This document shows positions 40,450 to 57,203 of a stretch of DNA of 64,000 nucleotides, one piece after another. Under the pieces are notes generated by a model. It searched no databases, was not told the origin of the DNA, and was given only the letters and a program-made list of their open reading frames with translations. Location: contig JALXFN010000074.1 of the NCBI GenBank assembly GCA_027068975.1, positions 62,001 through 126,000 on the forward strand, given 5' to 3'. Within the stretch, counting starts at the first letter, position 1. Every line of letters starts with the position of its first letter. The translations under genes were made by a program, and so were the position numbers. This DNA is from Campylobacteraceae bacterium (lineage in GTDB: Bacteria; Campylobacterota; Campylobacteria; Campylobacterales; Sulfurovaceae).

Positions 40450-41535
40450 TTAGGTTTTTTTTAGATTTTGGAAAAGTTTTTCTAAAGATTTTTTACTTGA
40501 CCCCACTCTAGGAATGATTCTTAGTATAGGGGCTTGAACGGTGGGTTGTCTAATTGCTCCTACTAAAAAACCTTTTTCTATTAACTCTTTTTGCATCTTC
40601 ATAGTAGTTGAGTTATTGGTCATTTCAATGGGAAGAATAAGTGATTGAGATTTAATTCCCAAATATTTTTCTATTATTTCATAACGTTTTTGAATCTTTT
40701 CATAATATTTAAAACTCTTTTTAGCCACAGTCTCTATGTTGACTAGAGCTAAAGCCGTGTCTATAACTGAGGGTGCAGTAGAGTAGATTATGGGTTTTCC
40801 ACGGTTAACTAAAAAAGAGATTATATGTGAAGATGCCAAAATATAAGCTCCATAGCTTCCATAGGCTTTTCCGAGTGTTCCCATTTTAATATGCCGTTCA
40901 TGAGGTTCTATATTATAGTATTCAAAAATACCAAGTAAGTTTTTCCCTATTACGCCAGAACTGTGTGCTTCATCAACTATCATTAAGGCTTCATACTTAT
41001 TTGCTAAATCAAATATAGCTCTATCACATAAAGCCCCAGACATAGAGTAGACACCTTCTACAGCAATAATCTTTCGTCCACCATTAAACTTTTTGAGTTT
41101 CTCTTCCAAGTCATTTGGGTCATTATGTCTAAACTTAACAACTCTATCAGCCAAAAGCCCAGTGGTCATCATGCCTGAAGCGTGGTAATCTTCATCTATA
41201 AAAAGCATATCTTTTTTACGAACTAAAGCTTCTATCAGTGAGACATTGGCTAAAAAACCAGAACCCACTACAATGCCTTCTTCAAAACCATTGAGTTTGG
41301 CTAAAGTCTGCTCAAACCGTTTATGAATTTCATGATAGCCATTAACGAGCATACTTGCTTTTGGGGAGTGAATGATATACTCATCAAGAAGATTCAGAGC
41401 TTTTTTTAGCTGTTTTTTATCGTTAGCAAGACCCAAGTAGTCATTTGATGCAAAGTCTATTAACTCTTTGTCCCAAACTTTTCTTTGGCGAAATCGTCCT
41501 GATTTTTTTATGGCATTTAGTTCTTTTTGGTACAT
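40450..41535 (-). CDS. bioF: 8-amino-7-oxononanoate synthase-like PLP enzyme
   Basis: A 361-residue alpha-oxoamine synthase. DFASNDYLGLANDKKQL, FIDEDYHASGMMTTGLLADRV, VEGVYSMSGALCDRAIF, VDEAHSSGVIGKN (PLP Asp/His) and GTLGKAYGSYGAYI (Schiff-base Lys) fit BioF or the related 2-amino-3-ketobutyrate CoA ligase. At 361 residues it is slightly short, as in other Campylobacterota. The biotin role is likely but not certain. Its ATG overlaps the stop of the restriction-like gene by one base, though that gene arrived separately (inference). Confidence 0.88.
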   Translation of the reverse strand: MYQKELNAIKKSGRFRQRKVWDKELIDFASNDYLGLANDKKQLKKALNLLDEYIIHSPKASMLVNGYHEIHKRFEQTLAKLNGFEEGIVVGSGFLANVSLIEALVRKKDMLFIDEDYHASGMMTTGLLADRVVKFRHNDPNDLEEKLKKFNGGRKIIAVEGVYSMSGALCDRAIFDLANKYEALMIVDEAHSSGVIGKNLLGIFEYYNIEPHERHIKMGTLGKAYGSYGAYILASSHIISFLVNRGKPIIYSTAPSVIDTALALVNIETVAKKSFKYYEKIQKRYEIIEKYLGIKSQSLILPIEMTNNSTTMKMQKELIEKGFLVGAIRQPTVQAPILRIIPRVGSSKKSLEKLFQNLKKT

Positions 41536-42284
41536 TACTTTTTTGTTTCTTCTTTTATAATATTCCAGTTTTCTTTATACTTTTCGATTCTATTAAGATT
41601 AATACGTTTACACTCTTCATTTGATAATTTATCTGCAAAACTCATGGGAATTATATAGCAAATCCCTACTTGTTTATCAACAGCTACATAAATATCACAA
41701 TCCTTACTAGTAATACGTTGACCAAGATTCGTTTCATGTTTATGATCGATCCCTTGTCCACCTCTATCTCGATCTTTAAAACTAATACTATTCCCAGTGC
41801 TAATTCCCTTAATCTGAACGCGTAATAATTTATTAGAGTAATCAATTATAGCATCATATCTACTACTTCGTACATCTACACTACTGCAATTGAATCCTGC
41901 TAATATAGCTCTTGCAACAAAAATAAATTCGGCACTATCCCCTGCATTGGCTGTCATAACACCCGATTCGATATTATTAATATTAACAGGAAAACCATTT
42001 GTCATAGCAATGTATAAAGATTTTTCAATAATATGTTTTAATTTTGTTTTAATAAATTGAAATTTTTTCTTTTTCTCATTAGGAATATTTTCTTCTATTC
42101 TTTGAAGATTCATTTCTGATAGTTCTTTTAAATTAATTTCTCTAGCAATATCTAAAAAAAATGTACGGTCATAAAATTTTTCTAAATCAGATTTTTTTAA
42201 TCCAAACTCATTAGCAATTTCTTTTATTTTACTCTTTTTATATTCCTTTTCAATTAATGCTTCAATGAGTTTTTGACTATTCAT
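41535..42284 (-). CDS. putative type II restriction endonuclease, PD-(D/E)XK-like
   Basis: A 249-residue protein. An N-terminal helical region has an HTH-like KIKEIANEFGLKKSDLEKFYD. Around residue 115-170, GDSAEFIFVARAILAGFNCSSVDVRSSRYDAIIDYSNK and LLRVQIKGIS give the spaced Glu, Asp and Q-x-K of a PD-(D/E)XK nuclease core (D-x9-12-QIK variant, as in intron-encoded and Holliday-type relatives). Its start overlaps the upstream C5-methyltransferase by 8 bases, the layout of a type II modification-restriction pair. It resembles no named enzyme I know, so the specificity is open. Confidence 0.6.
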   Translation of the reverse strand: MNSQKLIEALIEKEYKKSKIKEIANEFGLKKSDLEKFYDRTFFLDIAREINLKELSEMNLQRIEENIPNEKKKKFQFIKTKLKHIIEKSLYIAMTNGFPVNINNIESGVMTANAGDSAEFIFVARAILAGFNCSSVDVRSSRYDAIIDYSNKLLRVQIKGISTGNSISFKDRDRGGQGIDHKHETNLGQRITSKDCDIYVAVDKQVGICYIIPMSFADKLSNEECKRINLNRIEKYKENWNIIKEETKK

Positions 42285-43209
42285 TTATTGCCTTTTTAAG
42301 CTCTTTAGCAATAGCTTCAATCACAGGTACGGTTACAGAATTTCCTATTTGTTTATAGAGAGAAGAGTTAGCTAATTTTTCTGGGAAAGAAAATGTTTCA
42401 GGATATCCTTGAAATCGTGCACACTCTCTTGGCGTTAATTTACGTATATCTTTATCATCAATGACCAAAGGAACATTATGTCCACCTGTTCCCATATTTG
42501 CTGTTAGAGTGGGACAAAGTTTACTTTTATTTTCTCTAACATAAACGCGTCTCCATTGATAAAGTGTATCTTTGTGTTTCATTTCATCTTTTAATTGCTT
42601 ATAATATCGACTATTAGTGTAATAATATTTTTCTTCTGTCTCTGAATCAATAAAGTCAGTTACTTTCTTATTTAGTTTTTTGGGTTTTGGAAAATTAAAT
42701 TTTTCAGCAATTTTTTTATCTTTAAATGCAAGTATATAAATTCGTTCTCTATTTTGAGGAACATTTCCATATTCACATGAATTTAATACTTTATATTTAA
42801 GCGTATATCCTCGTTCTTCTAATTCATAAGTGATACGTTTAAAAGTTTTTCCTTTATCATGTCCTACAAGGTTTTTGACATTTTCTAAAAATATTACCTT
42901 AGGACTTAAATCATCAACAAATCTTAAAATTTCAAAGAATACATTTCCTCTATCATCACGAAAACCTTTCTGATGTCCTGCAATTGAAAAAGCTTGGCAG
43001 GGAAAACCAGCAGTTAAAATGTCAACTTTTTCAACTTCTGATGTCTGTAAATCTTTTAAATCTTTTTCAAAAAGTGTATGTTTGTGGTTATGTCTATATG
43101 TTATACAAGCATTTTTATCTATTTCATTTGCCCATGAAATTTCGAAACCAGCTTTTTTAAAACCAAGTTCGACTCCACCAATTCCTGCAAATAATCCACC
43201 TACTTTCAT
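42277..43209 (-). CDS. DNA (cytosine-5) methyltransferase, type II
   Basis: A 310-residue C5-methylase. Motif I GLFAGIGGVELGFKKAGF, motif IV GFPCQAFSIAG (catalytic Cys), motif VI ENVKNLVGH, motif VIII QNRERIYIL, then a target recognition region of about 80 residues, motif IX RKLTPRECARFQGYP and motif X GNSVTVPVIEAI. The start is placed at MKVGGLFAG since GAGGAG lies 5 bases before it; ATG codons at 43212 and 43242 are possible. The target sequence cannot be read from this. Paired with the downstream PD-(D/E)XK-like gene. Confidence 0.95.
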   Translation of the reverse strand: MKVGGLFAGIGGVELGFKKAGFEISWANEIDKNACITYRHNHKHTLFEKDLKDLQTSEVEKVDILTAGFPCQAFSIAGHQKGFRDDRGNVFFEILRFVDDLSPKVIFLENVKNLVGHDKGKTFKRITYELEERGYTLKYKVLNSCEYGNVPQNRERIYILAFKDKKIAEKFNFPKPKKLNKKVTDFIDSETEEKYYYTNSRYYKQLKDEMKHKDTLYQWRRVYVRENKSKLCPTLTANMGTGGHNVPLVIDDKDIRKLTPRECARFQGYPETFSFPEKLANSSLYKQIGNSVTVPVIEAIAKELKKAINE

Positions 43210-43324
43210 CATGACTCCTCTTATTTTATTTTTATTATACAAAGAAATTAATTAGAATGACTCTTTTTATTTCAAATTGTCATATTTTAACCAAGGTAAG
43301 AGCTTCGCAACATCCAATATAAAG

Positions 43325-46300
43325 CTACACATTCAACCCAATAATCTCAAAACGATTATTGACTTGACGCATAAATTTATAATATTTTATCTCATCAGGT
43401 TTAGCGTAAACTGGTTCAGGAGTCACGAAAACAATCCTAAAGCCACGGCTGTTAGCAAAGTGACGTAGTAGGTCTTGGTTATGACTATGAAGGCGTGAAA
43501 CTTCGTCGAGAATAAGGAAAAAGGTTGATTTTTTCTCTTGGGTATAGAGTCCCAAAATAGAGACAGCCAGTGCCATTTTAAGTAAAATTGTTCCTCCTGT
43601 GGAGCTTTCATTTTTTATCTGTGTGACATTAGATTTTGTGGTTCCGTTTTCGGTAAACTCTAAACTCAAATCAATGGTATCAAGCAGAGTAATGGCTCCC
43701 CCTTTTAATGTACTTTTTATCTCTGAGAGTAGGTTGGCAACTTTTTGTAAATCTTGGTTGGTTTGAGGTTTGTCAAAAAAGAGTGAGTCACTCTGGTTGG
43801 TAATGCTTAGGTTTTGTACCAGCTTATTCATCTCTGCGAGTAGGGTCATGATACTTCTTTGGTTACCGACTTCACTCTTTATTTTAATGTCCCGTACAAT
43901 CGAAAAGTCGATGGTAGAGAGGTTTTTGTTGATTTTACGAACCTGCTCTTGGAATCTATCTTCTGAGTGAGAGAGACTTCCCAGTTTGGAAGGAATTTCA
44001 CTCTTCATAAAGTTAAAATACTTCTCATTGGTGGTGCGTTTAAGAGGTTCAAACTGCTTCTCTTTGAAGTCTCGTAACTCTTGGAGTTGTTCCAGAGTCT
44101 CTAGGTCCTCTGAAAGCAGTTCAAACTTGCTAAAGTTCTCTACCTTAAAGCTTATCTCTTTAATAGAATTATTTTTGAGGATGTTGAGTTGACTTGCTAT
44201 CTCTTTCAGGTCAGTCTTGGCTCCCTTGTAGTCTCGTTTTAGCTCTTGATAGGTACCAATAAGCATAGCCAAATAAACTTGGGTCTCCTCTTGTTCCTCC
44301 ATAGGGGTCTCAAAGTTAAGGTTTTGGACTTTCTTTAGCCCCTCTTCGAGTTGAGCCATCTCTTCTTTAATCTTTTTTATAGCCTCTTGGGTACTGTTAA
44401 ACTCTTTAACAATGCTCTGCTCTTTAAAGAGGAGTTGACGCTCTAGGTTTTCACGGGTTTGACCTGCCATGCGTAGACGACTTGTTTTTCGTGAGAGACT
44501 CTCCATAAACTCACGACGTTTTTCATACTCCTCTAGGTAGTATTTGGCATCTTGACTCTTTTGTAGTTTTTTCTTAAGCTTCTCTATACTGCTTTTTAAC
44601 TCTCCGACAAGCTCCTCTTTTGAGAACTTTTTACGGTTCTCTTTTCGCTCTTTTATCTGCTTGTCTAGTCTCTCTTGCTCTTTGTGAAGCCATTTTTTAA
44701 GACTCTTTTTTTCTACTTTTTCACTCTCTTCTAGGCTCTTTTGGTAGGCTTTAAACTGCTCTTGTTGAGTTTTTATAAAGGTGTCAAACTCTTTTTTTAA
44801 TACCTTTATCTGCTCTTTTTTCTCTTGGATGTCCTTTTCTATCTGTCCAATCTTTTGGGTAATGCTTTCTAGTTTTTTACGCTTCTCTAGCTCCAGCTCT
44901 TTCTCGTACTCAGGGGTAGCGATGCTGTTAATATGGGTAATCTTTTGACGACACTCCTCAATATTTTTCTCTATGGCTTTAAGTTGCTCTTGTGCTTGTT
45001 GCTCTTTATGGTTAAGTCGTTCTAGTTCCTGAGACTCTTGTGCATAAAGAGCCTGTTTCTCCTCTTTATGCAGTTGGTGTAAGTGGGCTTTTTTTAATCG
45101 TGCTTCACGAATAGTCTCTTCAGCTTCCTCTTGGGTAGGGATGCTTTTAAGGGTTGAGTTATCTAGTTTGATGCCCAGTGGCATCTCGGTATTGGTCACT
45201 TCAGGTTTGAGCTGTTCGGTGGGCATGGAGAGTAGGGAACTGTCCATAAACGGGTAAAGCTCCTTCTCCCATGAAAGACCACTCTGCTGTAAAAACTCTT
45301 TAAAGGAACCCTTTTGAGTCTCTAAAATACTCTTTTGTGTTGCAATGGTTTGGTTGAGGTGTTGACGCTCTTTCCATAAGCTTTGGGTTAGGCTTTTGTG
45401 TTGCTGTTGGGTCTGTTTTTTCTGTTGCTCTTTTTGGTATGTTATCTCTTTTAACTCTTTTTTAAGACTGCGTTCCTGCTCTTCTTGCTCCTCAATCTTT
45501 GATTGATAGGACTTTTTGAGTTTAAACTGCTTCTCTAAAAAGAGGTTGAGCTTTTCTCGGTAGAGTTGATGTAGCTCATTGGCTTGATCTTTTTGCTCTT
45601 CAAGCTCCTGTTCATAAGCATCTATGGCAATCTTAATCGTTGCTATCTCCCCCTCCATACGGTGTTGCGTATGCTCTTTTTCGTTACGTTGCTCCTCTTT
45701 TTTTTGGGCGAGAAGTTCTAGTGTTTGTGCTTTTAGTTGCTCTTTTTTGAGCTGTTTTTCCCGTGGTAAGTCATGGTCACGTCGTGAACTAAGTTCTAAA
45801 ATCTCTTGGTCAATGGTATTCAGAGCATTAAGAACATCAGCTTCGAGTAGGGTGAGCTGTTGCTGTTTTAGTAGAAGTTCCTTCTCTAAAAATGGGAGTT
45901 TCAAAAACTGTTGCTGTTGCTCTTTGTAGTGTTGGGGAGCAAATTTTACCTTTAACTCCTCTATATCTTTTATCTCTTTCTCTAGGGTAGCTATCTCTTT
46001 AGCAAAGCGTTCACGCATACGGTTTAGAGACTTCTCTTTTTGAGATTTTTTTACTTGATGCTCTTGGGCTTGTCGGTTAAGTCGTTCAAGTCGCTCTCTT
46101 TTTTCAAAAAGAAGTGGCTCTTCAATGCCCTTTCTGTAAGTGATTTGGGATTGAACGCTTTTTAGTTGCTTCTCTAGGTTAAGGAGTTGCTCTTGTAGGC
46201 TAAAGGCTCTCTCTATACGTTTATGCTCTTTTTCAAACTTACGAAAAAAGAGGTAGCTCTCTTGAAAGCTCTTTATCTCATCCATATATTTCTGATAGTC

Positions 46301-46903
46301 AAACTCAATGTTCTTCTCTTCCATGTTGAGCGACTTCTGAATGGCACGTTTAATACTGTTGGCATCGACAATCGATTTGTCTACATTAAAGGTCTGGTTA
46401 AATAGCTCCACAAAGACGTTGTAGTTTTTAATGTTGGTGATTTTAAAGTCAAGGTATTGACGGTTTTGACCATAGATAATCTCACGGTAACCACTGCTCT
46501 TCGAGAGGTGGGTGAGTGGAGCATCTTTTAGGTACTCCTGTATGGTTTTAAAGGGGTGAAGGGTTCCATTGTCTTGGACTATCTGCTCAATCTCAAAAGC
46601 TTTTTTAGAAAAGCGTTTAAATATCTCTCCATTTTGTTTGTACATAAAGATAAAAAAGTCATCAAAAACATAGACAATAAAGGAGTTTCGCTCATCGGGA
46701 AAGTAGTACTCTTTAAAGCTCTTTTTATCGCTACTGATTCCCAGCTTTCTACTGTTATTGTCTCCTGAAAAGAGGTAAAAAAGAGCAATAATCGTACTGG
46801 TCTTTCCTGTTCCATTGTCTCCTGCAAAAAAGATATCTTTGCTAAGGTCTATTCGGGCATAGTCAAACTCGGCTGAGTTTATTAGAATCATCTCTTTTAA
46901 CAT
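43325..46903 (-). CDS. MukB/MksB/JetC-like SMC ATPase
   Basis: A 1192-residue SMC-type protein. The N-terminal head has INSAEFDYARIDL and Walker A AGDNGTGKTSTI. Residues about 220-950 are almost entirely Glu/Lys/Gln/Leu coiled coil, with a non-coiled hinge-like part near 540-590 (SGLSWEKELYPFMDSSLLSMP). The C-terminal head has the ABC signature region ESSTGGTILLKMALA and Walker B FFLILDEVSRL. Together with two small upstream genes it forms a MukBEF/MksBEF/JetABC-type condensin. It ends 116 bases before the methyltransferase start. Confidence 0.85.
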   Translation of the reverse strand: MLKEMILINSAEFDYARIDLSKDIFFAGDNGTGKTSTIIALFYLFSGDNNSRKLGISSDKKSFKEYYFPDERNSFIVYVFDDFFIFMYKQNGEIFKRFSKKAFEIEQIVQDNGTLHPFKTIQEYLKDAPLTHLSKSSGYREIIYGQNRQYLDFKITNIKNYNVFVELFNQTFNVDKSIVDANSIKRAIQKSLNMEEKNIEFDYQKYMDEIKSFQESYLFFRKFEKEHKRIERAFSLQEQLLNLEKQLKSVQSQITYRKGIEEPLLFEKRERLERLNRQAQEHQVKKSQKEKSLNRMRERFAKEIATLEKEIKDIEELKVKFAPQHYKEQQQQFLKLPFLEKELLLKQQQLTLLEADVLNALNTIDQEILELSSRRDHDLPREKQLKKEQLKAQTLELLAQKKEEQRNEKEHTQHRMEGEIATIKIAIDAYEQELEEQKDQANELHQLYREKLNLFLEKQFKLKKSYQSKIEEQEEQERSLKKELKEITYQKEQQKKQTQQQHKSLTQSLWKERQHLNQTIATQKSILETQKGSFKEFLQQSGLSWEKELYPFMDSSLLSMPTEQLKPEVTNTEMPLGIKLDNSTLKSIPTQEEAEETIREARLKKAHLHQLHKEEKQALYAQESQELERLNHKEQQAQEQLKAIEKNIEECRQKITHINSIATPEYEKELELEKRKKLESITQKIGQIEKDIQEKKEQIKVLKKEFDTFIKTQQEQFKAYQKSLEESEKVEKKSLKKWLHKEQERLDKQIKERKENRKKFSKEELVGELKSSIEKLKKKLQKSQDAKYYLEEYEKRREFMESLSRKTSRLRMAGQTRENLERQLLFKEQSIVKEFNSTQEAIKKIKEEMAQLEEGLKKVQNLNFETPMEEQEETQVYLAMLIGTYQELKRDYKGAKTDLKEIASQLNILKNNSIKEISFKVENFSKFELLSEDLETLEQLQELRDFKEKQFEPLKRTTNEKYFNFMKSEIPSKLGSLSHSEDRFQEQVRKINKNLSTIDFSIVRDIKIKSEVGNQRSIMTLLAEMNKLVQNLSITNQSDSLFFDKPQTNQDLQKVANLLSEIKSTLKGGAITLLDTIDLSLEFTENGTTKSNVTQIKNESSTGGTILLKMALAVSILGLYTQEKKSTFFLILDEVSRLHSHNQDLLRHFANSRGFRIVFVTPEPVYAKPDEIKYYKFMRQVNNRFEIIGLNV

Positions 46904-46906
46904 CGC

Positions 46907-47434
46907 TTATACCATGCTTTCTAAGTAAGATAGATAGTAGTCTAAACTGTTGAGAATAAGGTAGCTGTCTTTGTCATTTTTGTCAATTTTTTCGATAAGG
47001 TTCTCCTGTAGTAGCCGTTTAAAAAACTGTTCGGTACTCTCTTTTTGGTCACGCTCTTTAAAAAGATATGCCCACTTCTCTTGTAGGTGTTCATCTTGTT
47101 TGTTCTCAAAGGCTGTCACAAACTCGGTATAGCGAATGCTACTCCCCGTTCGAGCGTGGGGGAGCAGATGTTTTAAAATAGAAATCATCATAAAAACATC
47201 TTTATGCCCTTGAACAAACTGCTCTATCTTTTCACTGCTGAGGGCATCGGACTGTGAGAGGTAGAAGTAGCCATTTTCTCCATTGAGTTCGTACCCCAAC
47301 TCTTGGAGCAGGTTCTCATAAGCGATGTAGTTCTCTTCATTGAGTAAAAAGTTGGCTATCTCGCCATATTTGGCAGAGTTTCGAGAGATAATTATCCCTT
47401 TCATCATGGTCTGAAATGCTGTTGCTATGTCCAT
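46907..47434 (-). CDS. MukE/MksE/JetB-like KITE subunit
   Basis: A 175-residue winged-helix-like protein. MKGIIISRNSAKYGEIANFLL, GYFYLSQSDAL, MMISILKHLLPHA, RYTEFVTAF and FFKRLLQENLIEKIDKNDKDSYLILN resemble the DUF4194/MukE class, two winged helices that bind the kleisin. It lies between the kleisin-like gene (10-base overlap) and the SMC gene (3-base gap), which fixes it as a subunit of that complex. Confidence 0.75.
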   Translation of the reverse strand: MDIATAFQTMMKGIIISRNSAKYGEIANFLLNEENYIAYENLLQELGYELNGENGYFYLSQSDALSSEKIEQFVQGHKDVFMMISILKHLLPHARTGSSIRYTEFVTAFENKQDEHLQEKWAYLFKERDQKESTEQFFKRLLQENLIEKIDKNDKDSYLILNSLDYYLSYLESMV

Positions 47435-48537
47435 TGGGCAATCCTTATGTCGTGGTCGTTGTAGTGGTGGCTAAGGGTCACATGAGGGTTAGGAGGAATG
47501 ACAAACTGCAAGTAGACTTTAAAGCTCTCCTCTTTAAGTGAACCCCCATCACTTGACTCCTCTATAAATCGTCGTAGTTCCTCATGTTGGTAAATGTAAG
47601 TAAAGATATCGTTGCTCCCCTCTGCTTTAAGTCCATCTTCGATGAGTTTGAGGTTGACCAGTTTGAGTTGCTCCTCTTTTTGCGTCTGTAGAGTAAATGT
47701 TTTTGGCTCTTTTTTTACCTTTACATTATAGAGGTGTTGTCGAAGTTTTCTAATAATCTTACTACTCTCCGAGCCATCAGGAAAGGTTTTTATCTGACTC
47801 TTTTGGCTACGATGAAGGGTGAGGTAGGCATGTTTAGTGTTGAGCTTTAGCTCCTCTTCCAAGGCTTGGTCTTTCTCTTCTAAAATCTGTGAAGCGAGTT
47901 GATGAAGCTGTCGGTTCTGAAGCCGAAGTTTTCGGGTACGCACAATAAAATCTTTGAGACGTTCTAAACTGACAGAGATGTTCTCAATAAAGGTCGCCAT
48001 CTCATCCGAGATACCCTCTATAAAGCTCTTTGTTTTAGGGTGTAAAGTAAAAAGCTCACCATAAAAGACTTCACGTATTTTATTGTTGGCAAGGTTAAGC
48101 TCTTCTATTTTTTCCAAAATATCCATCGCTTTTTCTATGAGTAGGTCAAGCTCTAGGGCATTTTCGTTCTCTACTTTAATGAGTAGAGTACGAATCTCTT
48201 GGTCACGTTGATTGAGTTTGAGGAAAATACTCTTGAGCAGGGCTAAAATCTCATCGAGATAGTAGGCTTTATGCTCTTGAAGGTAGCGAGATTTCTGTTT
48301 GAGTAGCTCTTGAAGTTCAGCATCATAGGTGTTAAAAATCACTCCATAATCAATACGCCGTAAAGTGACATCTACAAAGTGCCGATAGCTCTGAGCGAGT
48401 TCAGTTCTCTCTCCAATCTTCACCACCAAGCGTGAAGTAGCCAGTGCATCGGAAGCAGTATCTTTTTGATTTTTATAAATCTCATCAAGCTCTTGACGAT
48501 GCGTGTAGATAAATTCAATTAGTTCTATATGGGTCAT
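47425..48537 (-). CDS. MukF/MksF/JetA-like kleisin subunit
   Basis: A 370-residue, mostly helical protein. The N terminus (HIELIEFIYTHRQELDEIYKN) fits a winged-helix start; helical coils run to about 230 (MDILEKIEELNLANNKIREVFYGE, RKLRLQNRQLHQLASQILEE). A C-terminal part with IVIPPNPH-like strands (QFVIPPNPHVTLSHHYND) would contact the SMC head. First gene of the three-gene condensin operon. JetA of Wadjet is longer (about 480), so MksF-like is the better label. Confidence 0.7.
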   Translation of the reverse strand: MTHIELIEFIYTHRQELDEIYKNQKDTASDALATSRLVVKIGERTELAQSYRHFVDVTLRRIDYGVIFNTYDAELQELLKQKSRYLQEHKAYYLDEILALLKSIFLKLNQRDQEIRTLLIKVENENALELDLLIEKAMDILEKIEELNLANNKIREVFYGELFTLHPKTKSFIEGISDEMATFIENISVSLERLKDFIVRTRKLRLQNRQLHQLASQILEEKDQALEEELKLNTKHAYLTLHRSQKSQIKTFPDGSESSKIIRKLRQHLYNVKVKKEPKTFTLQTQKEEQLKLVNLKLIEDGLKAEGSNDIFTYIYQHEELRRFIEESSDGGSLKEESFKVYLQFVIPPNPHVTLSHHYNDHDIRIAQWT

Positions 48538-48628: not shown

Positions 48629-49174
48629 CTACATCCAGCCTAAAAGTCTTTCCACATTTAACCCCATTGCCGTACTTTCATTTCCTTGAACGGATTTTAT
48701 GTACTTTTTACAAAAGCCTTCAACCATACATCCACCAGCTTTTCCTTGCCAATCACCACCCTCTAGGTAGGCTTCTAAGTCTGCTTCGTCATAAGGTAAA
48801 AACTCATAGTAGGTTGCCGAGACATCAGAGAGGTAGAAGTTTTTAGTTTTGTAGTGCATAGCCGAGATAATCGCCATGCTAGAGCCACTTTGTAGCTCTA
48901 AAATACGCTTGGCATCGGCTCTATCTTTAGGTTTTCGTAATAGTGAACCGTCAGAAGACAAAACCACTGAGTCAGCCGTGAGTAGGGGAGTGGCTAGTCC
49001 AAACTCTTTTATGGCAGCTTCTAGTTTTCCTTTTGAAGCGATGTAAGCAAAATCTTTAGCATTTGTTGTGTTGATGGTCTCTTCATCATACGTAGGTGCT
49101 TGTTGTATAAAAGGGATGTTAAAGTTGTTGAGCAACAAAGCCCGAGAAGTAGAGTTAGAAGCAAGATGTATCAT
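48629..49174 (-). CDS. maf: Maf-family nucleoside triphosphate pyrophosphatase
   Basis: A 181-residue house-cleaning pyrophosphatase. IHLASNSTSRALLLNNF is the N-terminal substrate loop, TPLLTADSVV and RKPKDRADAKRIL the second conserved block, and YLEGGDWQGKAGGCMVEGF the C-terminal one, all Maf signatures. In Campylobacter jejuni maf lies directly between alaS and the PBP1A gene; here it is separated from alaS by 8.8 kb and from PBP1A by 8.2 kb of accessory DNA. Confidence 0.92.
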   Translation of the reverse strand: MIHLASNSTSRALLLNNFNIPFIQQAPTYDEETINTTNAKDFAYIASKGKLEAAIKEFGLATPLLTADSVVLSSDGSLLRKPKDRADAKRILELQSGSSMAIISAMHYKTKNFYLSDVSATYYEFLPYDEADLEAYLEGGDWQGKAGGCMVEGFCKKYIKSVQGNESTAMGLNVERLLGWM

Positions 49175-50800: not shown

Positions 50801-51412
50801 ATGAACGATACATTATCATATTACGAAACAAACGCATCACAACTTGCTAAGCGTTATGAGTCAGCCAAAGTAGAAGCACTTCATACGTTACTAACAAATA
50901 CTTTTCCTAAAAACTCTAAACTCTTAGAGATAGGTTGTGGTTCAGGTCGTGATACTAAGTTTATGATGGAGAGAGGCTACCAAGTTACAGCGATAGATGG
51001 TTCAAAAGAGATGATAAACGAAGCAAAAAAGATACACCATACTCTTACTCCTTATCTTTTTGTCAAACAGCTCCCTTATGGGTTAGATTTTCAAGAAAAT
51101 TTATTTGATGGTGTCTATTCCATCGCTACACTTATGCATTTAACTAAAGAAGAGATATCTCAAACTATTAAAAATGTTCACACATTATTAAAAGAAAAAG
51201 GTAAATTTTTATTCTCTGTCTCCATTGAAAGAGATGATACCGACCAAAACAACAGAGACTCACATCAAAGACTCTTTACTTCATTTTCTCAAAGAGAGTG
51301 GGTTACTATTTGTAAAAACTACGGTTTAAATCATCTACATACCGAAGTTACAACAGACGGACTCAATAGAAGTGGTATTGTTTGGCTTACTTGTGTTGTT
51401 GAGAAAAGTTAA
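50801..51412 (+). CDS. class I SAM-dependent methyltransferase
   Basis: A 203-residue enzyme of the small Methyltransf_11/25 type. SKLLEIGCGSGRDTKFMMERGY is motif I, VTAIDGSKEMI motif II, and FDGVYSIATLMHLTKEE the region after motif III. The substrate is unknown. A decayed paralogue lies 6.7 kb away (57299-57751), across the HNH and helicase genes. It ends in a 4-base overlap with the convergent HNH gene. DNA, tRNA or small-molecule substrates are all possible. Confidence 0.85.
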   Translation: MNDTLSYYETNASQLAKRYESAKVEALHTLLTNTFPKNSKLLEIGCGSGRDTKFMMERGYQVTAIDGSKEMINEAKKIHHTLTPYLFVKQLPYGLDFQENLFDGVYSIATLMHLTKEEISQTIKNVHTLLKEKGKFLFSVSIERDDTDQNNRDSHQRLFTSFSQREWVTICKNYGLNHLHTEVTTDGLNRSGIVWLTCVVEKS

Positions 51413-52359
51413 GCTCTATTGCACTGTAAGTTTTCAATATTGACAATTTGAAACCCTGCTTTATAGCAGTTTTCATAATAATCAGTTATATCACTATTCC
51501 ACTTACTTAATGCTCTCTGCTCATTACGAATCACTATCTTCTCAATACAATCTTTAGGAGGTAAAGAATCACTTTTAATTAAATTACATTTACTACAAGA
51601 TTGAACAAGATTCCAAAGCTCATCTTCATAAATGTATGACCATGGTATAAAGTGGTCTATATGAACATCAGTATTTTCCAATTTTGTACCACAGTAGAAA
51701 CACTCTTCTTCCATCTCCATCAAAATTTTTCTAAACTTTGTTAGTGAGTTTCTTTTAGGGTCTTTCATAAGCTCTATTTTTGAAATCAATCTAGGTGTAA
51801 AATTGGTTTTTTCTAAAAATTTAGCCCACTCTAAGACCAATATTTTTGAAAGTGTTTCATTCTCTTTTTTAAAGAATTTTAATGCTTCATATTTTAAAAT
51901 AATCTTTTTTTCAGATGAGGATTTATAGGCTTTTCCATCTTTCGCTCGACTATAGAAGTGTTGATAAAATTCATTTTGTTCATCAGGTTGAAAACGAGGT
52001 ATTACATTGTCAAAACACTTTTTTTCTATTTCCCGAATAAGTGTTTCTTGTAACTCTTGTCTATTTTTAAAATATTTTTCATACGAATCAGCAATATATT
52101 CCGTCCCACAATGCTCTTGAATAATACGAATAACTACAGGCATTTTATCTTTATTAAAATCTTGTTTAAATTTATATTTACACTCTTGAAACCAATAGTA
52201 TTCTAAAAACTTTGTAGCTATTTCATAAAAGCTTATTTCATAGTCTTCTTCTTTGAGGTTTTGAGTTTTAGAATAGTCTAAAAGAAACTTAGCTAAAGCA
52301 AATTTATAGGTATTGCTTTTTGCTCCTTTTGATACTATGCTAACAAATAAATGTTTCAT
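51409..52359 (-). CDS. HNH endonuclease
   Basis: A 316-residue protein. The last third is an HNH domain with a zinc knuckle: ECFYCGTKL (CxxC), VHIDHFIPWSYI (the His-x-Asp-His catalytic core), ELWNLVQSCSKCNLIKSD (Asn, second CxxC, and final His/Lys region). The first 200 residues are helical, charged and unlike anything I know (MKHLFVSIVSKGAKSNTYKF, FYEIATKFLEYYWFQECKYK). It lies 53 bases downstream of the helicase gene on the same strand, presumably co-transcribed. Together they suggest a DNA-targeting defence function (inference). Confidence 0.85.
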   Translation of the reverse strand: MKHLFVSIVSKGAKSNTYKFALAKFLLDYSKTQNLKEEDYEISFYEIATKFLEYYWFQECKYKFKQDFNKDKMPVVIRIIQEHCGTEYIADSYEKYFKNRQELQETLIREIEKKCFDNVIPRFQPDEQNEFYQHFYSRAKDGKAYKSSSEKKIILKYEALKFFKKENETLSKILVLEWAKFLEKTNFTPRLISKIELMKDPKRNSLTKFRKILMEMEEECFYCGTKLENTDVHIDHFIPWSYIYEDELWNLVQSCSKCNLIKSDSLPPKDCIEKIVIRNEQRALSKWNSDITDYYENCYKAGFQIVNIENLQCNRA

Positions 52360-52412
52360 AAATATATACCTTTTTCATTTTAATACTTGATTGTTGATTG
52401 TATCTAATTTTA

Positions 52413-55400
52413 TTAATTCTTCTTCAAAACAACTTTACATAAAGGATGATAATTCTCCTCACTCTTTTCCTTATTATACCATTGCACAACAAACTCAACT
52501 GATATTTTATGAAAGTAAAAATTCTTACTTAGATAAACTTGTACTTTTTCATGAAATGACTTTGACAAGAAACCTATAACTCTGTTTTTGTAAACAATAC
52601 AAAAAGCTTTACTTTTCCCTCTCATCTCAAAATTTACATTCTCTCCTGCTAAAGCAATATTTGAATTATTATGAAATCCAAGTTGTATATCTTTTAATCC
52701 CATAATTAATGTTACCAACTTTTCATTTTGAAAATACTCTTTATCATCAAAAATATATTGGGCATATCCATCTTTATTGAGACGATGAATACCATGTCTT
52801 AAAATAGTCAACTCACTTTTAGCACGTGTCATTCCTACATAATAGAGGCGAATATCGCTATCTTCTTTAGGTGTTTGATTTACAAGTAGAATAACATTCT
52901 CAAACTCCATACCTTTAGATTTGTGTATGGTTGATACAGTTACTGTTTTATGGTACTCTTCAAACTCTTCTAATTTAATTTCATCAAGATAAGCTAACCA
53001 CTGAGAAACATAATAATTCTGACTCTCCAATAAAAATCTATCAATCACTTTTTGCAAAAGTATTAAATTTTTAGAACCTTTAAATCTATTTTCTATAATT
53101 CTCCATGCCTGTTCAAAATTCTCTTCAGTATAAAAAGTATCATGTTTCAATAAGCCATTAATTGTTTTATCAAACTCTATGATTTCAATAACATTTTTAA
53201 GTGCAAAATTTTCTCTTTCTAAGATATATTTAGCTCCTATACCAAGTGTATCTAACTGAGAATAGAGTTGCATAACCTCATCATTTGTATAGGCTAGTAT
53301 TGCAATATTTTTATACTCATCATACTTTTGTACTTTTTGTATAGCTGGGGTAATAAGATTTTTAGAACTACAAGTCTGTACTAAAACTGTACCTTTATCT
53401 TCTGAGTGAGCATGTAAATTATCTTTTTTATATCTATTAGATACTCGTTCTATAAACTCATTAGAATATTTTACTATGTTTTGTTTACTTCTAAAATTTG
53501 TAAGTAACTCATACTGTCTATAGAGGTCTTGCCCATCATCTTCATCTTTTCCAAACTCTTCTGAAAATTTATCTATGAATTTTACATCAGCTCCTGCATG
53601 GGTCATAATACACTGGTCATCATCACCAACAGCAATAATTCTCATCTCTTGATTATTTGCATTATAAATAGCTTTTACAAGTTCAAAACTATCTTCGTTA
53701 ATATCTTGAAACTCATCTAAAACTAAAACCCTCTTATAGGGTAAATGAACATCTCCTTCATTTATCTGTTTTGTTGCTTCAACAATAGACTCTTTCAAAA
53801 TATCTTCATCCTCTTTTACTACTCGTGCAATAAGTTTTAGAGCGTATGAATGAAAGGTATTTATTTCAATATCATAAGAGAGTACACCAATAAGCTGATT
53901 GAGCCTAGACTTAAATTCTCCTGCTGCAGTTCGTGAAAAAGTTAACATCATAAATTGTTCAGGTTTTATATCTTCAGTTAAGATAAGAGAAGCTATTTTG
54001 TGTACCAACACCTTAGTTTTACCAGAGCCTGGACCTGCAAGTATCATCATGGCTTTTGTTTTCTTATCATTTATAATCTCTTTTTGCTCCTCAGACATTT
54101 CAGAGAAAATTTTGTTATATCTTCGTTGTGTTATGGGTCGTGATATCTTCTCTTTTAAGAGGTTATATTTTTTCTTAAACTCTTTATAGGGCAATATAAA
54201 ATAATCTTTTAGAAACATCCCTGCCTTATAATCATCACTTTGTAAACGCTTTGCATACTCTCCCATAATGTGTATTGATTCTATTTTTACTTGGTAGTGT
54301 TTGGCTAATCTATGTTCATACTCTTTAGGTGTATATTTTCGTTTAACCTTTACTTTCTCTTCTTTAGTAATTTGCATTGGAGAGTAAGAGATAAAACGAC
54401 CACCTAACAGCTCTATTACTCTTAAATGGTGCATATATAAAAGTGCTTTATCTATCTCTTTGATTGTATAGTTTTGACCTATATGAGTTCGTAAATGGGT
54501 TAATGAAAAATCTACTTTTTTTTCTCTCTTTTTCTTCTCAAAATTTTCACCAAATAGTTTCAATATCTCATTAGAAATAGTATGTTTACGCCTAATAATA
54601 GTTTCTATTTTCTCTTTATCTATAATTTCAAAATACCATAAATCATTCTGCCTATTAATTCGTTTAAACAAAAACAGAGATTTATCTTTCCAACTGCGTA
54701 TAAGATTTTTAATTAATTCAGATTCATTTTTTTTAATTAAATCCTTTTGATGTAGATGTTCATTTAGCTCTTTAATCGTTATTTGTGATGCATTTGATGT
54801 CTCTAAAAAAGTTAATAGACTTGTTTCAATATTTTGAATGTCTGTAAATTTTTTCATCGATTTTTTTTGAATTAAAAGGCTTAAATCTTTACTCTCACCT
54901 AGCACCTCTATCTCTTTTAATTGCTGTATAGCTAAGGATATGTCTGATTTTTTATAACCTAATAAGTGTGCCAACTCATCTACTTGAACAGCTTTTACTT
55001 TTCCTTGCCCAAGAATAGTTTGTAAAACAAGAATGAGTATTTGCTTCTCTTCATCATTAAAATTTGACTTTTCTAAGAACTTATGCAATTTATCCATACT
55101 GTTTGTAGCAACGGAATCTGCAAAGAAATTTGTTTTGTTTCTTTTCCTAGAGATATACCCCTCTCTTTCCAATTCTAACAAAGCTGTTTTTATTTTTGTT
55201 GAATAATCAGCAGAGTCATCTTCTACATCCCAACCAGCTTCTAATGCTATCTCAAAAGATGTTTTGGTAATAATATCACCCTTAGTTTTCTTCAATACTC
55301 TAAAGATAGAGTTTATTTCACTGGCTGTAATTTTAGAACGATTCAACGATAGAAAGTGTTTATCTAAATCATTTTCATCATAAAGTATGGGACAAAAAGC

Positions 55401-57203
55401 ATTAAGTTTTTCATCTCTAGCACCTCTTCCTGCTTCTTGTGCATAACTCTCTAACGAGTCAGACATCTCATAGTGAATTACATTGGTAATATCAGGCTTA
55501 TCTACACCCATACCAAAAGCTGTAGTTGCTACAATAACATCAATCTCACTAAGTATATAATCTTTGAGAATTTTCATTTTCTCTTGAGACTCTATTTTAG
55601 AGTGAAAAGATTTTACATTTTTATCGGTATCCATAGATAACTGCTCTGCAATCTTATCGCAATCTTTTGTTGAAGAGGGAATGTAAACAAGTGTAGCACC
55701 ATCATGCTCCTTTATTAACTTTAAAAGTTCTATATATTTATTTTTACTTTCGGATGGAATAGACTTATAGTGTAAATTTTTTCTCTCTGGTGTAGCAATA
55801 TATTCAGATAGTTGAATATCTAAACCCTCTAAAAAATATATCTTAATATCATCAATAACACTTGGTTTAGCTGTTGCAGTAAAACAAGAGATAGGTATAT
55901 GGTCTTGAAAATTTTTAACCCTCAATAACTCTTTTACGTAGTCACAGATATAGTAATAGTCTTGCCTAAAGTCATTTCCCCATGTCGATAAACAGTGTGC
56001 TTCATCCACAACAAAACGCTCAATCAATCTATTTTTCAAAATATTAAAAATAGCATTAGAACGTAAAGACTCAGGAGCCAAATATAAAATATCAGCTTCT
56101 CCATTAATGACTTGCTCTATGGCTTCACTTCTCTCCAAAGGACTCATATATCCACTAATTGCCACAGCTTTATAATTGGCTACCTTTTCATTAAAACTTG
56201 TAATATGGTCTTTTATCAATGCTTGTAAAGGTGAGACAACAACTGTCAATGCTTTATATGATTTTGCTTTTATAATTGCAGGAAGCCAAAATGTAAATGT
56301 TTTTCCTCCTCCTGTTGGTAAAACAGCAAGAAAAGATTCATCCCTAAGCGATGCTTCTATAATATCTCGTTGAGTAATTTCTGTCTCCAAGAGTGTAGGA
56401 TTTAACTTTGGAAAAGGTCTAAAAGTTCCAAATCCAAATACCTCTTTAGAGAAGTTACTTAATTCATCTTTTACCTTATCTATATTAAAACACAACTTTT
56501 TTTGTATAGGAACAATGTTACTGTAAGTATGCAGTATCTTTGGTGGATGCGATTTTATTTCAATATGTGGTGTTAGCAAAGCAAGAATATAACCTAATTC
56601 CATAGGATTATCTCTAATCACCTCTAATAGATATTTTTCATCAACAATAACATCTTTATAAAGCTTTAAGATATTATTATAAAGATTCTCCTCTAAATAT
56701 TCAAATGTATGCATCTCTGACATATAAGCAAAAAAACCAGAAAAATATTTTTCATCTTTTAATAAAGAGTAAAAAATATTTTGAGTCATAGTATCTAAAT
56801 CTAAAAATCGTGCTTCTAACTGACTTAATAATCTAGCAGTGATTTTAGAGTCTTCTACAGGGTCATTTTTAAAATCATCTTCACCTTTATAGTTCTTTGG
56901 TAATGCGTGTACGGATTTTTCATTAAACAGTAGTAGTGAAAGAGGTAAAGTATCTATAATTTGATGTGCTTTAAGTGCATGGTAAAGTGTTGTATCTTTT
57001 AATATCTCTAAATCAAAATCTATAAAATTATGCCCACATATATATTTTGCTGAAGTACATAACATCATAAAGTTAGTAGTTTCTTTAATACCTGGAGTAT
57101 TATGCTCCATCTTCTTGTGAACCATACCAAGTTCATATATTTTCTTTGTATTTAGGCTAACTTCTATATCTAAAAAAATTATATTGTCATGATTCTTTTT
57201 CAT
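52413..57203 (-). CDS. DEDD exonuclease - RecQ helicase - UvrD helicase fusion
   Basis: A 1596-residue multidomain protein. Residues 5-135: DEDD-type 3'-5' exonuclease fold (FLDIE 10-14, CGHNFIDFD 56-64, DPVEDSK 114-120). Residues 265-610: RecQ-type superfamily 2 helicase (LPTGGGKT 295-302, DEAH 400-403, SCFTATAK 439-446, QEAGRGARD 589-597). Residues 610-1020: helical/winged-helix linkers. Residues 1030-1520: UvrD-type superfamily 1 helicase (AGPGSGKT 1056-1063, VLDEFQDIN, VGDDDQCI, TIHKSKGMEFENVIL, LYYVGMTRAKSEL). A unique C-terminal end of about 100 residues follows. All three catalytic parts look intact. Operon with the HNH nuclease. Defence or repair role unknown. Confidence 0.88.
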   Translation of the reverse strand: MKKNHDNIIFLDIEVSLNTKKIYELGMVHKKMEHNTPGIKETTNFMMLCTSAKYICGHNFIDFDLEILKDTTLYHALKAHQIIDTLPLSLLLFNEKSVHALPKNYKGEDDFKNDPVEDSKITARLLSQLEARFLDLDTMTQNIFYSLLKDEKYFSGFFAYMSEMHTFEYLEENLYNNILKLYKDVIVDEKYLLEVIRDNPMELGYILALLTPHIEIKSHPPKILHTYSNIVPIQKKLCFNIDKVKDELSNFSKEVFGFGTFRPFPKLNPTLLETEITQRDIIEASLRDESFLAVLPTGGGKTFTFWLPAIIKAKSYKALTVVVSPLQALIKDHITSFNEKVANYKAVAISGYMSPLERSEAIEQVINGEADILYLAPESLRSNAIFNILKNRLIERFVVDEAHCLSTWGNDFRQDYYYICDYVKELLRVKNFQDHIPISCFTATAKPSVIDDIKIYFLEGLDIQLSEYIATPERKNLHYKSIPSESKNKYIELLKLIKEHDGATLVYIPSSTKDCDKIAEQLSMDTDKNVKSFHSKIESQEKMKILKDYILSEIDVIVATTAFGMGVDKPDITNVIHYEMSDSLESYAQEAGRGARDEKLNAFCPILYDENDLDKHFLSLNRSKITASEINSIFRVLKKTKGDIITKTSFEIALEAGWDVEDDSADYSTKIKTALLELEREGYISRKRNKTNFFADSVATNSMDKLHKFLEKSNFNDEEKQILILVLQTILGQGKVKAVQVDELAHLLGYKKSDISLAIQQLKEIEVLGESKDLSLLIQKKSMKKFTDIQNIETSLLTFLETSNASQITIKELNEHLHQKDLIKKNESELIKNLIRSWKDKSLFLFKRINRQNDLWYFEIIDKEKIETIIRRKHTISNEILKLFGENFEKKKREKKVDFSLTHLRTHIGQNYTIKEIDKALLYMHHLRVIELLGGRFISYSPMQITKEEKVKVKRKYTPKEYEHRLAKHYQVKIESIHIMGEYAKRLQSDDYKAGMFLKDYFILPYKEFKKKYNLLKEKISRPITQRRYNKIFSEMSEEQKEIINDKKTKAMMILAGPGSGKTKVLVHKIASLILTEDIKPEQFMMLTFSRTAAGEFKSRLNQLIGVLSYDIEINTFHSYALKLIARVVKEDEDILKESIVEATKQINEGDVHLPYKRVLVLDEFQDINEDSFELVKAIYNANNQEMRIIAVGDDDQCIMTHAGADVKFIDKFSEEFGKDEDDGQDLYRQYELLTNFRSKQNIVKYSNEFIERVSNRYKKDNLHAHSEDKGTVLVQTCSSKNLITPAIQKVQKYDEYKNIAILAYTNDEVMQLYSQLDTLGIGAKYILERENFALKNVIEIIEFDKTINGLLKHDTFYTEENFEQAWRIIENRFKGSKNLILLQKVIDRFLLESQNYYVSQWLAYLDEIKLEEFEEYHKTVTVSTIHKSKGMEFENVILLVNQTPKEDSDIRLYYVGMTRAKSELTILRHGIHRLNKDGYAQYIFDDKEYFQNEKLVTLIMGLKDIQLGFHNNSNIALAGENVNFEMRGKSKAFCIVYKNRVIGFLSKSFHEKVQVYLSKNFYFHKISVEFVVQWYNKEKSEENYHPLCKVVLKKN

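Follow-up and report, generated by a model that had tools for sequence, protein, structure and literature searches.

The window, a 64,000-nucleotide stretch of a Campylobacteraceae draft genome, contains three adjacent open reading frames (ORFs) that resemble the genes of structural maintenance of chromosomes (SMC) complexes of the MksBEF/JetABC type, followed on the same strand by a methyltransferase and a putative nuclease. Such a set raises the question of whether it encodes a chromosome-organizing complex without a nuclease or a plasmid-removing Wadjet system in which the JetD nuclease was replaced by another, possibly the neighboring 249-residue protein; the first-pass annotation left both readings standing.

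The mksFEB operon and its relation to known SMC systems

The operon lies on the minus strand and begins with an mksF-like gene in the kleisin position (370 amino acids [aa]; positions 47425 to 48537), followed by mksE, predicted to encode a KITE subunit (175 aa; 46907 to 47434, minus strand), and mksB, predicted to encode an SMC ATPase (1,192 aa; 43325 to 46903, minus strand). The predicted ORFs bore out the gene order F-E-B and the protein lengths given in the first-pass annotation, as well as part of what it said of overlaps: mksF and mksE overlap by 10 nucleotides (nt), and mksE and mksB are separated by a gap of 3 nt. The upstream border is a maf gene (48629 to 49174, minus strand; NCBIfam NF003141, 8e-69, above cut-off). 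The downstream border, beyond the methyltransferase and the putative nuclease, is a bioF-like gene (40450 to 41535, minus strand), for which the best NCBIfam match was bioF (5.8e-82, below the cut-off of that model).

An MksE-family KITE subunit was recognized by sequence similarity (Pfam MksE, PF21980; E = 9.8e-14, above cut-off). The MksB protein matched Pfam DUF3584 (E = 1.5e-26) and contained strings resembling the Walker A (GDNGTGKT at 28), signature (SSTGG at 1100), and Walker B (LILDEV at 1130) elements of an SMC ATPase. The 370-aa F protein had no family match in Pfam or PDB searches, and profile comparisons with hhalign gave no signal between F and the MukF or local JetA profiles or between E and the MukE or local JetB profiles. 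An AlphaFold model of F (pLDDT, 49) was too poor for judging a kleisin fold. Every complete relative conserved F together with E and B; this co-conservation and the position of the gene in the operon are the basis for naming the protein MksF, as a putative kleisin. The three-gene mksF-mksE-mksB set is a genuine MksBEF operon.

The operon resembles MukBEF of Escherichia coli in its F-E-B gene order and differs from it in that similarity of F and E was undetectable by profile. Likenesses to Wadjet/MksBEFG (JetABCD) include the encoding of an SMC and an MksE-type subunit by the same operon and the presence, in distant relatives of the window operon, of a JetD_C/DUF7281 protein; the difference is that the window operon has no nuclease. 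The PADLOC Wadjet models matched the window only for JetC, weakly and locally (2e-5; best stretch, residues 2 to 53), with no match for JetA, JetB, or JetD. Classical Wadjet occurs at several loci in the family as a set of genes for proteins of ~475, ~190, ~1,100, and ~387 aa (the last being JetD), and an iterated profile built on the SMC of the window did not detect the ~1,100-aa SMC of this set. Nuclease-free MksBEF of Pseudomonas aeruginosa, in which the motor is likewise kept without the cutter, is a precedent for the reading favored here. P. aeruginosa also has Smc-ScpAB, in contrast to the window's family, in which ScpA was not found, and the window operon belongs to a separate lineage whose nuclease-bearing relatives are still visible.

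Elsewhere in the window (51409 to 57203, minus strand), an ORF for a 316-aa HNH protein lies beside one for a 1,596-aa protein with a DpdF-like DEAD/Helicase_C module and a UvrD-type helicase module. These HNH and double-helicase proteins may form a separate defense pair.

The adjoining restriction-modification pair

ORFs and Pfam matches agreed with the earlier identification of a C5 cytosine DNA methyltransferase (42277 to 43242, minus strand; 321 aa) and a PD-(D/E)XK-like protein (41535 to 42284, minus strand; 249 aa) after mksB on the same strand, the two genes overlapping by 8 nt. The methyltransferase matched Pfam DNA_methylase (PF00145, 1.3e-94) and TIGR00675. It was listed from a TTG start at 321 aa, and the start is probably an internal ATG, because most relatives are 310 to 311 aa long. 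The 249-aa protein, the putative restriction endonuclease partner, matched Pfam PDDEXK_5 (1.8e-7, above cut-off) and weakly matched PDB entry 2ost, annotated as a putative endonuclease. The nearest phage match of the methyltransferase was annotated as hpaIIM, from a Helicobacter pullorum phage (62.5% identity), and this annotation hints at CCGG as the target.

The first-pass annotation had offered the 249-aa protein as a possible replacement for JetD. It adjoins the operon on the same strand and is a credible nuclease, and its distribution speaks against its having taken over the role of nuclease of the SMC complex. The 249-aa nuclease and the methyltransferase occurred together in six other genomes of the family (G152, G159, G106, G161, G045, and G001, the last with a truncated nuclease), with no mks genes in the 3.5 to 3.7 kb read around these pairs. 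Conversely, the pair was missing between mksB and bioF in G170, G173, and G054, in which a bioF-like gene directly follows mksB, and in G165 and G166 its place is taken by two C5 methyltransferases and a NOV_C protein, next to an SMC 93 to 94% identical to that of the window. A substitution of this protein for JetD is thus contradicted and was considered highly improbable. With methyltransferase and endonuclease genes co-occurring as in type II restriction-modification (R-M) systems, the pair is best described from its gene content as a predicted type II R-M passenger that is no part of the SMC system.

A small JetD-like gene in relatives and its absence from the window clade

The host draft genome (2.78 Mb, 146 contigs, 96% complete) was searched for a JetD/MksG toprim nuclease, and none was found. 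There was no match to JetD_C (PF09983), to DUF7281 (PF23947), or to two profiles of a small JetD-like protein across the draft genome, and a six-frame scan of the 64-kb window for a JetD-like gene gave nothing significant. The earlier observation that no such gene lies beside the operon therefore held for the window and extended to the rest of the draft genome. Classical JetD was found in 20 of 175 family genomes.

Less close relatives of the operon in the Campylobacterota carry a fourth gene, predicted to encode a toprim-like DUF7281/JetD_C protein of 246 to 268 aa. In g7, g3, g10, f7, and f12 genomes, a gene for a 252- to 268-aa protein lies immediately upstream of mksF, abutting or overlapping it (the version in G064 is 206 aa, with an interrupted frame), and in two f4 genomes a 246-aa relative follows mksB, immediately in G258 and at a distance of a few genes in G213. 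More distant operons with an SMC of ~1,235 aa have a 276- to 296-aa version directly downstream. Seven loci of this kind (L043, L044, L118, L119, L163, L164, and L165) combine an F protein of ~390 aa, an E protein of ~190 aa, and the ~1,235-aa SMC with the 276- to 296-aa DUF7281 protein encoded downstream of the SMC gene; at L119, PADLOC reported a weak JetC match only and otherwise did not recognize the operon as Wadjet.

The relation of these small proteins to JetD was supported by several comparisons. In a ten-protein set drawn from both groups, DUF7281 was matched in all ten and JetD_C in five (best, 4.2e-9). The small JetD-like profile aligned with JetD of the same family in the E/N, DxD, and EQE motifs (hhalign, E = 4e-5), and JetD was reached by iterative HMM search. 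Against PDB, the profile weakly matched topoisomerase VI A, ranked second (E = 0.19), and a narrower profile had no match; topoisomerase VI A is the fold named for MksG. PADLOC recognized neither of the two small DUF7281 proteins tested, and the DUF7281 protein seems to be a marker of Wadjet-like operons missed by the PADLOC models. A 340- to 343-aa JetD_C protein was also found at L094 (G173:C103) and G152:C256, next to a PDDEXK protein of the DUF1016/YhcG type and an open frame of 742 aa, and these loci are probably another system.

All seven family genomes with a strong match to the small JetD also carried the window-type SMC, and the small JetD was present in 0 of 10 window-clade carriers, all draft genomes. 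In the SMC tree, eight g1 rows and one g9 row made up the window clade, a single branch supported at 100/100 and surrounded by clades that have the nuclease gene. The backbone between clades was weak (support, 50 to 68), and the fewest-changes count for presence of the nuclease gene was 4. Since outgroup operons on the tree also carry the gene, its loss in the window clade stands independently of the weak deep branches. By this distribution, the window clade, situated between maf and bioF, has evidently lost the fourth gene. No small JetD was present in G179, in G232, or in G177, whose genome is 100% complete on a single contig, and this suggests further separate losses in other lineages. In G444, a small JetD-like gene is located on another contig. 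A JetD homologue in sister strains had been named in the first-pass annotation as evidence against its proposal, and the outcome was mixed: beside the operon, the nearest sisters had none, and a small JetD homologue was found in more distant relatives of the operon. Because of this pattern, the operon looks like one that lost its nuclease rather than replaced it.

Distribution of the operon and interpretation of the locus

The maf-mksFEB-bioF arrangement was found in clade members, and in two genera mks has kept to this one site. Genus members that lack mks may have maf directly abutting bioF (e.g., G150 and G152), or the two genes may enclose a toxin-antitoxin pair (ParE/Phd), a C5 methyltransferase on its own, phosphomethylpyrimidine kinase, dksA, or PAS genes. 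The gap between maf and bioF, empty or differently filled in these genomes, is therefore a variable site. The SMC was present in 9 of 34 genus genomes, so MksBEF is an accessory complex without which most relatives live. Only the last 63 residues of mksB remain in G060, and the G159 operon is divided between mksE and mksB. G163 carries at L030 (G163:C173) an mksB 97% identical to that of G159 and shares with G159 a 117-nt stretch upstream of mksB; mksF was not found anywhere in this 97% complete genome. Plasmid copies of mksB were limited to partial, weak matches in 8 Bacteroidota plasmids.

Where the operon is kept, purifying selection on mksF, mksE, and mksB is strong. Compared with close sisters, dN/dS was 0.07 to 0.10 for mksB, 0 to 0.036 for mksE, and 0.057 to 0.068 for mksF, in a range similar to that of the neighboring genes (bioF, 0.10 to 0.15; a PBP gene, 0.04 to 0.08). 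MksB and BioF identities among carriers were correlated (r = 0.96 over 28 non-independent pairs), consistent with vertical descent. ScpA was found in none of 175 family genomes, with positive controls found in 9 of 14 reference genomes, and the cells of this family therefore appear to be without Smc-ScpAB.

The explanation best supported by these results, with a probability of roughly 0.6, is that the locus is an MksBEF without a nuclease that arose from a Wadjet-like MksGFEB of four genes, that it would now act as a loop-forming accessory organizer of the chromosome, and that the R-M cassette is independent of it. A small toprim-type mksG/jetD-like gene would have been lost from the four-gene operon in the ancestor of the window clade. 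The SMC ATPase with MksE and F could still extrude or bridge DNA loops without cutting, and by analogy with P. aeruginosa MksBEF may serve as an accessory chromosome-organizing condensin in cells where no Smc-ScpAB was found; the type II R-M cassette would have been inserted at the variable maf-bioF site. Retention of a loop-forming motor after loss of the cutter is the parsimonious reading, and we infer that MksBEF now organizes the chromosome. Of the options in the first-pass annotation, MksBEF acting alone in chromosome organization is thus the better supported, with no JetD found in the genome. Some observations weigh against it. Carriage by so few genus members and the empty sites or remnant in sisters indicate that the operon is dispensable, as defense systems are, and other strains have toxin-antitoxin and methyltransferase genes at the same site. 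Moreover, the genome is a draft in which a gap could hide a nuclease gene, and F is a putative kleisin.

The same patchiness, together with a site common to defense-type genes, leaves room for an anti-plasmid role. MksFEB might still sense, through loop extrusion, small circles of plasmid or other foreign DNA and, rather than have JetD cut them, restrain or silence them, or pass them to a general host nuclease. Such nuclease-free defense would fit the empty and decayed sites, the absence of the operon from most genus members, the sharing of the site with R-M and toxin-antitoxin genes, and the resemblance of the small-JetD-bearing relatives to defense operons. It fits less well with the loss of the known effector throughout the clade, with B, E, and F showing no fast evolution at close range, and with mks having kept to a single site in two genera instead of moving, and it was judged unlikely on balance. 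Less probable still is a four-gene Wadjet-like system whose nuclease acts from a gene elsewhere in the genome (in trans) that the draft assembly failed to capture. The separate contig bearing the small JetD-like gene in G444 offers a model for this arrangement, and a 96% complete genome allows for it; yet the drafts of all 10 clade carriers lack the gene, and the complete G177, from another clade, has MksFEB without it.

MksBEF, and perhaps MukBEF, have been proposed to derive from plasmid-cutting Wadjet through nuclease loss. Here a single SMC tree holds versions of one operon with and without the nuclease gene, the gene apparently having been lost several times, and Smc-ScpAB was not found in the family concerned; this makes the proposal testable by comparison of close natural relatives. 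More tentatively, and as a possibility rather than an expectation, a plasmid-cutting MksGFEB may have repeatedly lost its small nuclease within this one phylum and been kept as the sole condensin-like complex in cells without Smc-ScpAB, or as a nuclease-free restraint on foreign circles. If so, the phylum would hold a natural series of conversions from defense to housekeeping.
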